Origin: Marinobacterium lutimaris
GTDB taxonomy: Bacteria > Pseudomonadota > Gammaproteobacteria > Pseudomonadales > Balneatricaceae
Reading direction: 5' to 3'
Assembly (NCBI RefSeq): GCF_900108065.1
Contig: NZ_FNVQ01000004.1
Location: 62,001-126,000 of the forward strand
DNA length: 64,000 bases
Each line of letters opens with the position of its first letter. Position 1 is the first letter of the stretch. This document shows positions 41,940 through 46,433 of this stretch, one piece after another. A program made the position numbers and the translations under genes. Under the pieces are notes generated by a model. It was given only the letters and a program-made list of their open reading frames with translations, was not told the DNA's origin and searched no databases.

Positions 41940-42761
41940 ATGATAAGCCAGCTGCTTGAGCCCTCACGTCCCCTGGACGATATCGCCCCGCTGGGACGCA
42001 TCGGTCTGGTGGCGCTGTCCACCGACTTCAACAGCGAGCAGGACCTGCGCCGCTTCTACCCCGAAGGGGTCGAGGTGTTTACCAGCCGTGTGGCCAATCA
42101 CAATCCAATGACACTGGCCAACCTGCGCGCCATGGCGCCAGGCATCACCGGTGCAGCGGAGCTGATTCTACCCGGCATCAAACTGGACGTGATGGTCTAC
42201 GGCTGTACCGCCGGCACCCTGGCCATTGGAGAGGACAGAATAGCGGACCTGATCAGGCTGGCGCGCCCGGGCGTACCGGTCACCAACCCACTGCTGGCAG
42301 GCATCAAGGGCTGCCGCGCACTCGGCGCCAGCCGCATCTCCCTGCTGACGCCCTACACCGAGGATGTAAACCTGGAACTGGCACAACAGTTCATGGCGCG
42401 CGGCTTCGAGGTACTCAGCGTGGCCGGTCTTGGCTTTACCGACGACCGCCTGGTCACCGGCGTCTCCCCTCTGGATATTGCCGATGCGGCCGTCGCTGCC
42501 TGCGATCCGCTGGCGGACCTGCTGTTTATCTCCTGCACCGCTCTGCGCGCCTCCCTGGCGATCGAAGCGATCGAGACCCGGCTCGGCAAACCGGTGGTCA
42601 GCAGCAACCAGGCGATTGCCTGGCACAGTCTGCGCCTGCTTGGCTATAACGGCAGGATCGAGCATTTCGGCCAGCTGTTCGAACAGCCTTGCGAAAGCGT
42701 CAGCGCGAGCCTCGCGCACCTGCTCAACCTGCCGCCGGATCCGGGCGCCTCACCGGCATAA
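41940..42761 (+). CDS. Asp/Glu racemase superfamily protein (maleate isomerase / EutA-like)
   Basis: The 273-residue protein has the two-cysteine active-site plan of the Asp/Glu racemase, arylmalonate decarboxylase and maleate isomerase group: Cys89 in VYGCTAGTL and Cys199 in FISCTALRA. VPVTNPLLAGIKGCRALGA and SRISLLTPYTEDVN are further family segments. Ectoine-utilisation protein EutA is one member of this type, but no ectoine catabolic genes are nearby, so the substrate is not assigned. It is followed after 189 bp by the buf operon. Confidence 0.8.
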   Translation: MISQLLEPSRPLDDIAPLGRIGLVALSTDFNSEQDLRRFYPEGVEVFTSRVANHNPMTLANLRAMAPGITGAAELILPGIKLDVMVYGCTAGTLAIGEDRIADLIRLARPGVPVTNPLLAGIKGCRALGASRISLLTPYTEDVNLELAQQFMARGFEVLSVAGLGFTDDRLVTGVSPLDIADAAVAACDPLADLLFISCTALRASLAIEAIETRLGKPVVSSNQAIAWHSLRLLGYNGRIEHFGQLFEQPCESVSASLAHLLNLPPDPGASPA

Positions 42762-42880
42762 GCCCCTGATGGCAGAGCGCTGGCATACTGCCCGGCCTCC
42801 TCAGAAACAAGCCTCGAAAGTTTTTTGCGTTTTCCGTGTAAGGAATGCGTTTGGCCGTCGACTATCGCAACAGGAAGGGA

Positions 42881-42915
42881 AGCAGCTGTTTCTCTTCTCG
42901 ATGGAAACGGCTGCT
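42881..42915 (+). promoter_or_regulatory. 12-bp hairpin in the bufA leader
   Basis: AGCAGCTGTTTC (42881-42892) pairs with GAAACGGCTGCT (42904-42915) over 12 positions with a single G-T wobble, around an 11-base loop. It ends 35 bases before the bufA ATG and has no T-run. It may be a regulatory element or RNA stabiliser in the leader. Confidence 0.5.
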
Positions 42916-42950
42916 TCAGCCAACGCACCCCAAAAAACCGGAGAACAATC

Positions 42951-43244
42951 ATGTCTATCAAGACTACCACTGCTACGACGCTTGCACTGGCCCTGGGTAC
43001 CGCGGTCAGCCTCACCTCCCTGCCGGCAACGGCGGCCGATATGGAGAAATGCTTTGGCGTCTCTCTGAAAGGTCAGAACGACTGCAAGGCAGGCCCCGGC
43101 ACGACCTGCGCCGGCACCGCGAAAAAGGACCATCAGGGCAACGCCTTCAAGATGGTTCCGGCAGGCACCTGCACCGAGATGGAATCCACTACCTCACCCA
43201 CAGGTATGGGGCAGCTCGAAGCGTTCGAAGAGAAGATGTCCTAA
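42951..43244 (+). CDS. bufA: Bufferin precursor (DUF2282, BufA1-type)
   Basis: The 97-residue protein has a signal peptide (cleavage near residue 29 after TAA). The mature chain is small and has exactly four cysteines, Cys34, 45, 53 and 74, in the order EKC, NDC, TTCAG and GTC that defines DUF2282. These proteins are RiPP precursors (bufferins) whose central cysteines are modified by an MNIO enzyme and which protect against copper stress from the periplasm. ATG 42951 is chosen because GGAG lies 10 bases upstream and the signal peptide starts there. bufB, bufC and a DoxX gene follow on the same strand. Confidence 0.9.
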
Positions 43245-43279
43245 GGAGCCGGCTTTAGCGCCAGCGGGAGGTGTTCAAC

Positions 43280-44170
43280 ATGAGCAACAGACAACCAAGC
43301 CCATTCCAGCCTCCCGCCGGTTTGCCTGCAGCTGCCGGCATAGGGCTTAAACCGGAACATTTCCAGCCGCTGCTGGAGAGCCAACCGAAGCTGGGATTTG
43401 TCGAGGTGCATGCCGAGAATTACATGGTGGCCGGCGGCCCCATGCATCACTACCTGCACCGGGTACACGAACAGTATGCGCTGTCGCTTCATGGCGTAGG
43501 ACTTTCCATCGGCGGCAGCGAGCCGCTTGATGAAACCCATCTGGAGCGACTTAAAACACTGATTGAGCGCCATCGGCCTGAACGCTTTTCCGAGCATCTT
43601 GCCTGGTCCAGCCATAACGGCCACTTCATGAATGATCTACTGCCGCTACCCTACACCGGCGAGCGCCTGCAAAAGGTCTGCGATCATGTGGACAGAGTTC
43701 AGGAGAGGCTGGGAATACAGATGCTGCTGGAAAACCCGGCAACCTATGTTCAGTTCCGCGCATCCAGCTACTCGGAGCCTGAATTTATTGGCGAAGTCAT
43801 TCGTCGCACCGGCTGCGGCCTGTTGCTGGATGTGAATAACGTCTATGTCAGCGCCATCAACCACGGCTTCAGCAGCCATGACTATATCGACGCCCTGCCC
43901 TGCGACCAGGTTGGCGAAATCCATCTGGCGGGTTTTGCGCTCGACAGGAACAGTAACAGCGATGCCCAGGGAGCTCCGCTGCTGATCGATAGCCATGATG
44001 CACCGGTGGCCGATGCGGTATGGACATTATATGACTTCGCCCTGAAACGGACCGGCCCAGTGGCTACGCTGATCGAGCGCGACGCGAACCTGCCGCCGCT
44101 ACCGATCCTGGTCGCCGAGGCTCAGCAGGCCGCTGCCCGACTCCGAAGCCTGGCGCTGGAGGTAGCCTGA
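43280..44170 (+). CDS. bufB: MNIO-family modification enzyme BufB (DUF692)
   Basis: The 296-residue protein belongs to the multinuclear non-heme iron oxidases related to MbnB. Expected metal ligands appear in order: EVHAENYM, SLHGVGLS, FSEHLAW, LLENPATY, LLLDVNNVYVSAINHG, GEIHLAGF, IDSHDAPV and LIERDANLP. These enzymes oxidise cysteines of their RiPP precursor to heterocycles. ATG 43280 has GGGAGG 8 bases upstream; a GTG at 43271 is less likely. It starts 35 bp after bufA and its stop overlaps the bufC start by one base. Confidence 0.93.
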   Translation: MSNRQPSPFQPPAGLPAAAGIGLKPEHFQPLLESQPKLGFVEVHAENYMVAGGPMHHYLHRVHEQYALSLHGVGLSIGGSEPLDETHLERLKTLIERHRPERFSEHLAWSSHNGHFMNDLLPLPYTGERLQKVCDHVDRVQERLGIQMLLENPATYVQFRASSYSEPEFIGEVIRRTGCGLLLDVNNVYVSAINHGFSSHDYIDALPCDQVGEIHLAGFALDRNSNSDAQGAPLLIDSHDAPVADAVWTLYDFALKRTGPVATLIERDANLPPLPILVAEAQQAAARLRSLALEVA

Positions 44171-44931
44171 TGAATACCTACCTCAGCAGTGAAGCGGAAT
44201 TTCAGCAGGCACTGCTCGACCCGGAACTGCCACCACCTGCGGGTATCACCGCCTGGAATGGCGATGCCGGCCGCTTCGATGTCTATCGCAACAACCTGAT
44301 CGTGTCGCTGATCGACGCCCTGGCCAGCAGTTTCGACGTGGTCCAGCAGCTGGTCGGTGAGCCCTTTTTTCGCGCCATGGCGCGGGAGTTTCTGCGCGAT
44401 CCTGCCAACCAGCCCACTTCGCCGGTGCTAGCCCATTACGGCGAGAAGTTTCCCGCCTTTATCGCAGCATTCGAGCCCGCCGCATCGCTGCCTTTTCTCG
44501 GTGAAGTCGCACGGCTGGAATGGTTGCGGCTCCAGGCACTGCACTCGGCTGACGCCACGCCCGGCGAGAGTGAGTACTTATCCACAATGCTTAAGAACCC
44601 GCGCTCTCCTGCCGCACACATAGTGTTGTTTCACCCCTCGGCGAGCCTGTTCCGCAGCCGTTACGCGGCGGTATCTATCTGGGCGGCACACCAGGGAGTG
44701 TTGAAGCTGGCCGACGTGAAACCAGACCAGGCGGAACAAAGCCTGATACTCAGGCCGGCACTGGAGGTAGAGCTCATACCGCTGACAGCTGAAAACGCCC
44801 GGCTGATCGCGCAGCTGATGGCCGGCGAAACGCTGCAGTCCCTGCATGGAGACGCGCCGTTAGAGCCGACACTTGAGCTGCTGATCTACCACGGAGCGAT
44901 CACCGGTCTTACCGAGCTGCAGGAGGAGTAA
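44170..44931 (+). CDS. bufC: Bufferin partner protein BufC (DUF2063)
   Basis: The 253-residue protein has the N-terminal DUF2063 domain (FQQALLDPELPPPAGI...RFDVYRNNLIVSLIDALASSFDVVQQLVG, about residues 8-65) and a C-terminal domain, as in MbnC-like partners that bring the precursor to the DUF692 oxidase. Translation is coupled to bufB through a TGATG overlap. The DoxX gene begins 3 bp after its stop. Confidence 0.92.
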   Translation: MNTYLSSEAEFQQALLDPELPPPAGITAWNGDAGRFDVYRNNLIVSLIDALASSFDVVQQLVGEPFFRAMAREFLRDPANQPTSPVLAHYGEKFPAFIAAFEPAASLPFLGEVARLEWLRLQALHSADATPGESEYLSTMLKNPRSPAAHIVLFHPSASLFRSRYAAVSIWAAHQGVLKLADVKPDQAEQSLILRPALEVELIPLTAENARLIAQLMAGETLQSLHGDAPLEPTLELLIYHGAITGLTELQEE

Positions 44932-44934
44932 ACG

Positions 44935-45435
44935 ATGAACGGTTCAACATCCAGCTCATTTACCGGCCTGATCTGCAAGGCCAACGCCCTGCTGGGGCGG
45001 ATCCCGGAAAACCTGGTGCAACTGCTGGCCCGTTTCTCCCTGGCTGCGATCTTCTGGATTTCGGGGCAAACCAAGATCGAGGGCTTCGCGCTGAATATTA
45101 TCGATGGCACCTTTGAATTCGGCTGGCCCCGCTTCGCCGGCTCAACTCTCTACCTGTTTCGCGAGGAGTACGCCCTGCCGCTAATCCCCGTGGAACTCGC
45201 CGCAACCCTGGCCACCACCGCAGAACATCTGTTCCCGGTACTGCTCCTGCTGGGGCTGGCGACCCGCTTCTCTGCTCTGGCGTTGCTGGTCATGACGCTG
45301 ACAATTCAACTGTTCGTTTATCCCGGCGCCTATCCAACCCACGGTATCTGGGCTACCGGCCTGCTGTTCCTGATGATGCGTGGTGCTGGTACCCTGTCTG
45401 TTGATTACTGGCTAAAACGTCGTTGCGGTGGATAG
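44935..45435 (+). CDS. DoxX-family membrane protein of the buf operon
   Basis: The 166-residue protein has four membrane helices. [21 protein letters not shown] is the typical DoxX start and [22 protein letters not shown] a conserved helix. DoxX proteins often accompany DUF692/DUF2063 genes; a redox or quinone-linked role has been suggested but is not settled. It is the last gene of the operon. Confidence 0.9.
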
Positions 45436-45482
45436 CCTCAGGCGATAGCACGCCAGCTCCACTACACTGATCGCTCGAAGGG

Positions 45483-45506
45483 CCGCATTGTGGATGCGGT
45501 CTTTCT
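45483..45506 (+). terminator. Weak terminator after the buf operon
   Basis: CCGCAT and ATGCGG form a 6-bp stem around a 5-base loop, followed by TCTTTCT. It separates the buf operon from the EamA transporter gene. Confidence 0.5.
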
Positions 45507-45536
45507 GTGTCTGCGTTAACCGGAAAGGATACCCCG

Positions 45537-46433
45537 TTGCTGATACCCGCCGCTTACCTCACCGTGGTCGTGATCTGGTCGACTTCCCCGCTCACCATTG
45601 CCTGGAGCGGCGAAACCGTGGACCCGATCATCGCGGCCGGACTGAGAATGGCGCTGGCGGCCGCCGCCGGTCTTCTCCTGCTGGCGGCGCGACGAGAGCC
45701 TCTGCCACTAAACGGAAAGGCGCTGCGCTCCTATCTCTGCGCCACACTTGGCGTGTATGGCGCCATGTGCAGTGTCTATCTGGCGGCGCGCTACGTGCCC
45801 TCAGGCCTGATCTCGGTGCTGTTTGGCCTGGCGCCGATCCTCTCGGCCCTGTTTGCCCGGGTGCTGTTCCGCAGTGAGCATTTTCCCTTCTATCGCTGGC
45901 TCGCCTGTGCGCTGGCGCTGGCCGGCCTTGCCGTAATCTTCATGGACGACGTAGCGCTAGGCCCCGGCAGTCTGCCCGGCGTTCTGCTGCTCAGCCTTGG
46001 CGTCAGCCTGTTCAGCCTCAGCGGCGTGCTGGTCAAACAGCAGCGCGCCCAGCTCGACCCGCTGGCACAGACCGTGGGCGCTCTTATACTTTCAATCCCC
46101 TGCTACCTGGTCACCTGGCTGCTGATCGGCGGTGATTGGCAGCCACTGGATCCCACCTCGCGCTCCTTCTGGTCGATCATCTACCTGGCGCTGATCGGCT
46201 CGCTGCTGGGGTTCGTCTCCTACTACTTCGTGCTGAAACACCTGAGCGCCAGCACCGTAGCGCTGGTAACCTTGATTACGCCGGTGTTCGCACTGCTGCT
46301 CGGCCACCTGTTTAACGATGAGCCTCTGAGCGAACAACTCTATCTAGGTTCGGCACTGGTTCTGGCGGGGCTTGGCCTGTTTTTCTTCGGCGGCTCGCTG
46401 ACCTCTCTGCGCCGACTGGGCTCGACACGCTGA
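45537..46433 (+). CDS. DMT-superfamily transporter (EamA)
   Basis: The 298-residue membrane protein has ten helices formed by two EamA repeats; the second begins near LLLSLGVSLFSLSGVLVKQQ. IWSTSPLTIAWSG and LMSL-like LVTLITPVFALLLGHLFNDEPLS are family-type segments. TTG at 45537 is preferred because AGGA lies 7 bases upstream; GTG at 45507 in the same frame would add ten residues. Such proteins export metabolites, often amino acids; the substrate here is unknown. Confidence 0.85.
   Translation: MLIPAAYLTVVVIWSTSPLTIAWSGETVDPIIAAGLRMALAAAAGLLLLAARREPLPLNGKALRSYLCATLGVYGAMCSVYLAARYVPSGLISVLFGLAPILSALFARVLFRSEHFPFYRWLACALALAGLAVIFMDDVALGPGSLPGVLLLSLGVSLFSLSGVLVKQQRAQLDPLAQTVGALILSIPCYLVTWLLIGGDWQPLDPTSRSFWSIIYLALIGSLLGFVSYYFVLKHLSASTVALVTLITPVFALLLGHLFNDEPLSEQLYLGSALVLAGLGLFFFGGSLTSLRRLGSTR

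Follow-up and report, generated by a model that had tools for sequence, protein, structure and literature searches.

A predicted RpoE2-type promoter before a Buf1 bufferin operon of Marinobacterium lutimaris suggests a trans-acting regulon shared with the methionine sulfoxide reductase MsrP

What switches on a bufferin operon that has no sigma factor gene beside it? The question is raised by bufA-bufB-bufC-doxX, four genes at positions 42951–45435 of a 64,000-nucleotide stretch of Marinobacterium lutimaris DNA (RefSeq assembly GCF_900108065.1, contig NZ_FNVQ01000004.1, positions 62,001–126,000 of the forward strand; hereafter the window), which by their sequences form a standard Buf1 (DUF2282) bufferin operon, a published family. 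The original prediction, made without database searches, had remarked that neither an extracytoplasmic function (ECF) sigma/anti-sigma pair nor a copper regulator adjoins the operon. Both absences were confirmed: none was found among the five neighboring genes scanned (the rest of the window was not searched for a copper regulator), and the 24 Sigma70_r4_2 matches in the genome all lie on contigs other than that of the window (C11). Upstream of bufA, however, lies a predicted ECF-type promoter, TGTAAGG-N15-CGACT, for which the genome encodes a candidate sigma factor on a different contig. We consider it likely that this is a Buf1 operon with Caulobacter-like modification of its peptide, placed in a trans-acting RpoE2-type regulon together with the methionine sulfoxide reductase (Msr) MsrP and expressed under oxidative or thiol-type stress of the envelope. 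The gene cluster itself is one further bufferin of a known family; the promoter and its genome-wide partners are its most informative feature and matter more. Published work is cited by PubMed Central accession.

The element occupies positions 42837–42863 (+ strand), with its predicted −35 and −10 boxes 87 bp upstream of bufA. It was present in all six aligned bufA upstream regions of the genus (genomes with a DUF2282 gene), in which the surrounding DNA was less conserved, save a short CA-GAAG stretch 3′ of the element. A genome-wide search allowing a spacing of 13–17 returned two exact copies only, both with a spacing of 15, one before bufA and the other 72 bp upstream of msrP, the product of which scored 482.9 bits against an NCBIfam cut-off of 207; the reversed control pattern, given equal latitude in spacing, matched once in the genome. 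Control of the NrsF/sigF type was considered and rejected, given that the genome yielded no NrsF match at E 0.001, against a positive Caulobacter control, and that no GTAACC-N16-CGAA promoter, allowing up to one mismatch, lies upstream of the window bufA (locus L096). A literature search for the sequence of the element together with an ECF sigma returned no report.

The exact pattern was then scanned across 116 genomes of the Marinobacterium family, with the downstream DNA classified by script. This gave 73 copies in 36 genomes, 72 of which were analyzed as distinct (one was left out as a duplicate context). Fifty of these precede one of nine gene classes, assigned from sequence patterns (for most classes, one or two representatives were also run against NCBIfam): ArsS (11 copies), MsrP (10), EGKCG/HvfA-type precursors (9 copies, 8 genes), bufA (DUF2282; 7), the sigma gene (4), methylthioadenosine phosphorylase (MTAP; 3), MsrBA or MsrA (3), Buf2 precursors (2), and a Met-rich repeat peptide (1). 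In total, 18 copies stand before precursors of MNIO-type ribosomally synthesized and post-translationally modified peptides (7 DUF2282, 9 EGKCG, and 2 Buf2) and 13 before Msr genes. Six of the seven bufA copies had served to define the motif, and with all seven removed, 43 of the remaining 65 copies still fell within the classes. At positions outside the search pattern, W-W-T followed TGTAAGG in 32/50 classified copies vs. 3/22 of the others (p 7e-5). After CGACT, a count made on the 50 classified copies gave an A in 34 and a second A in 30, as in the Neisseria promoter discussed below.

The ArsS copies (L124, L136, L144, L146, L150, L193, L201, L205, L208, L213, and L215), spread over four genera of the family, precede genes for an arsenosugar radical SAM protein, an assignment checked with TIGR04167 on L124 only. 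The element was seen 5′ of the MTAP gene in three same-genus genomes (L189, L193, and L136), with an arsS copy of the element close by in two of the three. The Met-rich product (L206:507-869) is a secreted-looking, Cys-free protein built of MMHKADDMKK units with no NCBIfam match, which may be a sacrificial methionine peptide.

The candidate sigma factor was found by taking the ECF sigma gene behind one copy of the motif (L123) as the starting point and searching for its relatives in the 116 genomes at 1e-30. A match was present in 37 genomes, and that of M. lutimaris lies on contig C20 (C20:254758-255312) and is a member of TIGR02943 (218.3 bits; NCBIfam cut-off 162.2), to which the Neisseria and Haemophilus sigmas would also belong. 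The sigma occurs in 26/36 genomes with the motif vs. 11/80 without it (Fisher p 1e-9, not corrected for relatedness), and the reversed control pattern showed no association with it (p 0.96). The M. lutimaris sigma gene is itself preceded by the element with one mismatch, TGTAAGG-N15-CGACA. Directly 3′ of it, with overlapping stop and start codons, a 66-residue zf-HC2 protein is encoded (30.1 bits; cut-off 22.2), a candidate zinc anti-sigma (ZAS) factor with the pattern C-X25-H-X3-C-X2-C. A ZAS protein (C-X23-26-H-X3-C-X2-C) accompanied the sigma in all 30 loci fetched, out of 38 sigma matches.

The ECF genes among nine of the 24 Sigma70_r4_2 loci, inspected by eye, were set aside as candidates, their partners being RseA, FecR, ChrR-like, and anti-sigma-K-like proteins. 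At one locus on contig C18 (L103, near 1113764), a FecI-like sigma gene was seen, again by eye, to adjoin genes for a secreted His/Met-rich protein and an outer-membrane efflux-like protein, with a FecR-like gene opposite it; this is possibly a metal-responsive locus.

Several observations weigh against assigning the element, and with it the operon, to this sigma. Of the 72 distinct copies, 22 precede something else or nothing clear, falling in none of the nine classes, and the strict Neisseria continuation W-T-T after TGTAAGG separates the two sets less sharply (16/50 classified vs. 2/22 others, p 0.03). The −10 box, CGACT, differs by one base from the CGTCT of Neisseria (PMC2893595). Ten of the 36 motif genomes gave no sigma match at 1e-30, and half of the 12 copies in these ten nonetheless precede msrP, arsS, or bufA (in G006, G047, G051, G071, and G082); conversely, 11 of the 37 sigma genomes lack an exact element. 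A second bufA of M. lutimaris, on contig C18, has no TGTAAGG-N15-CGACT in its upstream DNA. Lastly, 18 genomes of the family carry a DUF2282 gene as well as the sigma, but an exact element precedes bufA in only six of them, all of this genus.

Because of this last count, the tie between the sigma and the DUF2282 bufferin holds firmly within the genus but does not extend to the family at large. The family DUF2282 loci considered come from part of all DUF2282 matches; 30 of 31 loci gave a bufA recognizable by pattern (the other was left out). Among the 31 DUF2282 rows from these 30 loci, seven carried the exact element, one further copy had a single mismatch, and one had two (L237 and L233, respectively). 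In other genera, the precursors under this sigma appear to be of the EGKCG or Buf2 type. A wider comparison used 80 loci of named BufB relatives, in 74 of which bufA was recognized by pattern (the remainder were left out). The element was exact before four bufA genes, two in Marinobacterium and two in Rhodocyclaceae (L010 and L027), and thus reaches beyond the Marinobacterium family; it had one mismatch before two others and two mismatches before one. The sigma and NrsF were sought in 40 of the 80 loci, representing 38 genomes. All six genomes with the element at one mismatch or fewer matched the M. lutimaris sigma, vs. 17 of all 38 tested (chance 0.004), including the Rhodocyclaceae genome of L027, which has NrsF as well. 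The sigma had no match in any of the 11 Pseudomonas genomes examined, one of which has NrsF.

In the remaining 67 of the 74 named loci, bufA has no element even at two mismatches, and most family genomes with both genes are likewise without it, so other controls of bufferins must exist. One might then suppose that a metal sensor or a housekeeping promoter drives the M. lutimaris operon as well and that the conserved block is secondary or fortuitous, and the related gig operon of Legionella is indeed reported to respond to copper and gold (PMC5413113). We think this improbable: the block is conserved across the genus, unlike much of the DNA upstream of bufA, it recurs 5′ of functionally linked genes, and no sigma-70-like promoter was found in 42700–45560, a weak test given that shuffled sequences averaged only 0.8. 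The comparison also bears on the suggestion in the original prediction that regulation may differ from that of the described systems. An adjacent pair is indeed absent, but such an absence is not unusual, since NrsF was matched in 12 of the 38 BufB-relative genomes and in none of the other 26, and since the Caulobacter sigF also controls a buf operon, CC2907-2905, at a distance (PMC3511200); moreover, a predicted ECF-type promoter and, on another contig, a candidate sigma/anti-sigma pair of the Neisseria/Haemophilus type are present.

The first gene of the operon, bufA (42951–43244, + strand), encodes a 97-residue Buf1 precursor with four cysteines (Cys34, Cys45, Cys53, and Cys74), which scored 84.4 bits against DUF2282 (PF10048; Pfam cut-off 22.4). 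A BufA2 identity was rejected, as the BufA2 model gave 24.2 against an NCBIfam cut-off of 60. Read by eye, its N-terminus shows a lysine, a hydrophobic stretch, and an ATA-A site ahead of Cys34. The second gene, bufB (43280–44170, +; ATG at 43280, TGA at 44168–44170), encodes a 296-residue MNIO bufferin maturase with 354.3 bits against MbnB_TglH_ChrH (PF05114; cut-off 25) and 381.4 against the bufferin maturase model NF050167 (cut-off 310). The ATG of bufC (44170–44931, +) begins on the last base of the bufB stop codon, and its 253-residue product is the DUF2063 (PME type 1) partner (PF09836, 79.8 bits; cut-off 27.2). After a further 3 bp, doxX (44935–45435, +) encodes a 166-residue DoxX-family membrane protein (PF07681, 58.7 bits; cut-off 23.6). 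The bufC and doxX products matched Hvf-type NCBIfam models at scores below cut-off only. Every coordinate, overlap, and gap of the original prediction was thereby borne out, as was its four-Cys DUF2282 precursor, and the profile search it had proposed placed all four proteins above the Pfam cut-offs. Its description of the operon as complete is also fair, given that a precursor, an MNIO, a DUF2063 partner, and DoxX form the published core of the Buf1 cluster (PMC12452194).

Among solved structures, BufB is closest to the MNIO protein 3bww (E 1.1e-45), with the TglH and MbnB chains matching more weakly; for BufA and BufC, a sequence search of these structures gave no hit at the thresholds used. 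In the alignment of BufB with the three, blocks such as SEH, LEN, DVNN, HLAG, DSH, and ERD are identical or nearly so, and we take these to be the site of the MNIO iron ligands. The closest named relatives of BufB are those of Marinobacterium lacunae (71% identity) and M. zhoushanense (74%), and that of another genome of the genus shares 84%. The five neighboring genes scanned encode an MFS transporter, an EutA-like protein, an EamA transporter, a histidine phosphatase (His_Phos_1), and a Mem_trans transporter. A scan found no intrinsic terminator 3′ of doxX, and a hairpin noted by eye near 45480 failed the rule of the scan.

BufA would carry a signal peptide of the Sec type. By analogy with Caulobacter Buf1, the cytoplasmic action of BufB, as an iron MNIO, and BufC would most likely convert Cys45 and Cys53 to 5-thiooxazoles, and on the same analogy, Cys34 and Cys74 would form a disulfide and the periplasmic product would bind copper. 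Thiooxazole formation entails a loss of ~4 Da per modified cysteine. It could instead be supposed that BufA is exported unmodified as a plain four-Cys copper protein and that BufB and BufC act on some other target; we regard this as very unlikely, because bufA, bufB, and bufC follow the published order in close succession and BufB scores above the cut-off of the bufferin maturase model. In the scheme favored here, transcription would start from TGTAAGG-N15-CGACT via the TIGR02943-family ECF sigma encoded on C20, the ZAS protein would hold that sigma, and the sigma would co-induce MsrP; the peptide is therefore probably produced when the envelope is under oxidative or thiol-type stress, beside protein repair, and not as a copper response only. 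We infer, in short, use of the element by this sigma, induction by an oxidant either in addition to copper or in its place, and a Caulobacter-like modification of the peptide.

A different role for the same peptide deserves mention, namely that the mature product is mainly a periplasmic sulfur scavenger of hypochlorite-type oxidants, with copper secondary. Such a role would explain its place beside the methionine sulfoxide reductases. It accords with the predicted partners of the regulon (MsrP, MsrBA/MsrA, and, in one genome, the Met-rich repeat peptide) and with the RpoE2-dependent induction of the Haemophilus doxX operon by HOCl (PMC7907618). We nevertheless give it little credence, since Caulobacter Buf1 binds both Cu(I) and Cu(II) and aids growth in excess copper (PMC12452194), and the Caulobacter sigF genes were reported not to be induced by oxidants (PMC3511200).

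The original prediction counted a single precursor gene, which holds for the operon but not for the genome, where the DUF2282, MNIO, and DUF2063 families are each represented by two genes. The other set lies on contig C18 (L003, 8844–13379) and comprises a YHS-domain protein, a thioredoxin, bufA, doxX, an AraC-type regulator on the opposite strand (by eye), bufB, and bufC. Its BufB shares 42% identity with that of the window and scored 302.6 against the bufferin maturase model, slightly below the cut-off of 310. The arrangement is a departure, because the bufABC order has been described as strictly conserved (PMC12452194). A script found bufA in 28 family loci, and by a crude rule, the gene that follows it is DoxX-like in four of these (L001, L225, L234, and L247).

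Bufferins are thus linked to two kinds of regulator, sigF/NrsF in Caulobacter and, as predicted here, RpoE2/ZAS, and both pair them with Msr enzymes, which suggests an ancestral defense against oxidative damage. On balance, we favor the view that in Marinobacterium and its relatives, one dispersed RpoE2-type sigma/ZAS regulon joins all three large MNIO copper-peptide families (DUF2282, Buf2, and EGKCG, in different genomes) to Msr, ArsS, and MTAP, and that the ancestral role of the peptide was to protect the envelope from oxidative damage, of which copper would be one source. ArsS and MTAP would enter the same predicted response, a link not mentioned in the accessible parts of the regulon accounts cited. 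The promoter provides a short sequence tag by which captophorin operons and their partner genes can be sought, and with a DUF2282 bufferin placed in the Haemophilus/Neisseria type of regulon, it becomes testable whether bufferins respond to copper, oxidants, or both. Our literature search found no account that places a DUF2282 bufferin under the control of a sigma of the RpoE2 type; it covered titles and the openings of abstracts, with subscription papers mostly outside its reach, and is not proof of novelty.

Among known systems, the closest in gene content is CC3254-3257 of Caulobacter vibrioides (DUF2282-DUF692-DUF2063-DoxX), with the same families in the same order. Caulobacter Buf1 carries Cys-derived thiooxazoles, its central two cysteines being modified and its outer two disulfide-bonded (PMC12452194). 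There, sigF/NrsF controls two DUF2282 operons together with MsrP (YedY, CC2748) via GTAACC-N16-CGAA (PMC3511200), so that co-regulation of a buf operon and MsrP by an ECF sigma, predicted here, has a precedent. In Caulobacter, however, sigF-nrsF adjoins the operon, whereas in Marinobacterium no NrsF was found and the promoter and the TIGR02943 sigma with its ZAS partner are of another type.

That type resembles two other systems. We take the Haemophilus influenzae doxX operon under RpoE2 control to be the hvf operon. After hypochlorite, RpoE2 controls msrAB and this operon, which encodes a periplasmic protein, a COG3220 protein, a DUF2063 protein, and DoxX, and its anti-sigma is the 67-residue ZAS protein HrsE (PMC7907618); an ECF sigma with a small ZAS anti-sigma and, by prediction for M. 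lutimaris, its control of a methionine sulfoxide reductase and of an operon of this kind are features in common. The precursor there would be an EGKCG oxazolin (PMC12452194, with the operon equated as above), whereas Marinobacterium has a DUF2282 bufferin as precursor and MsrP as reductase. In Neisseria meningitidis, the SigE promoter is given as GTMAGBWTT, 12–13 bp, CGTCTAAH, its targets as msrA/msrB and the NMB2140-2145 operon, and its ZAS anti-sigma as MseR (PMC2893595). The likeness extends to the −35 GTAAGG with an AT-rich continuation, an equivalent spacing, a ZAS anti-sigma directly 3′ of the sigma, and autoregulation, here suggested by the one-mismatch element, but the Neisseria sigma lies in one operon with its neighbors NMB2140-2143, and that of Marinobacterium on another contig than the bufferin operon. 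Finally, the captophorins, thiooxazole metallophores made by MNIO-PME1 systems, have three named precursor groups, among them DUF2282 (PMC13097082); in its genes, we saw no difference between the Marinobacterium operon and these systems. The operon would therefore seem to combine a Caulobacter-like DUF2282 precursor with a promoter and sigma of the Neisseria/Haemophilus type.

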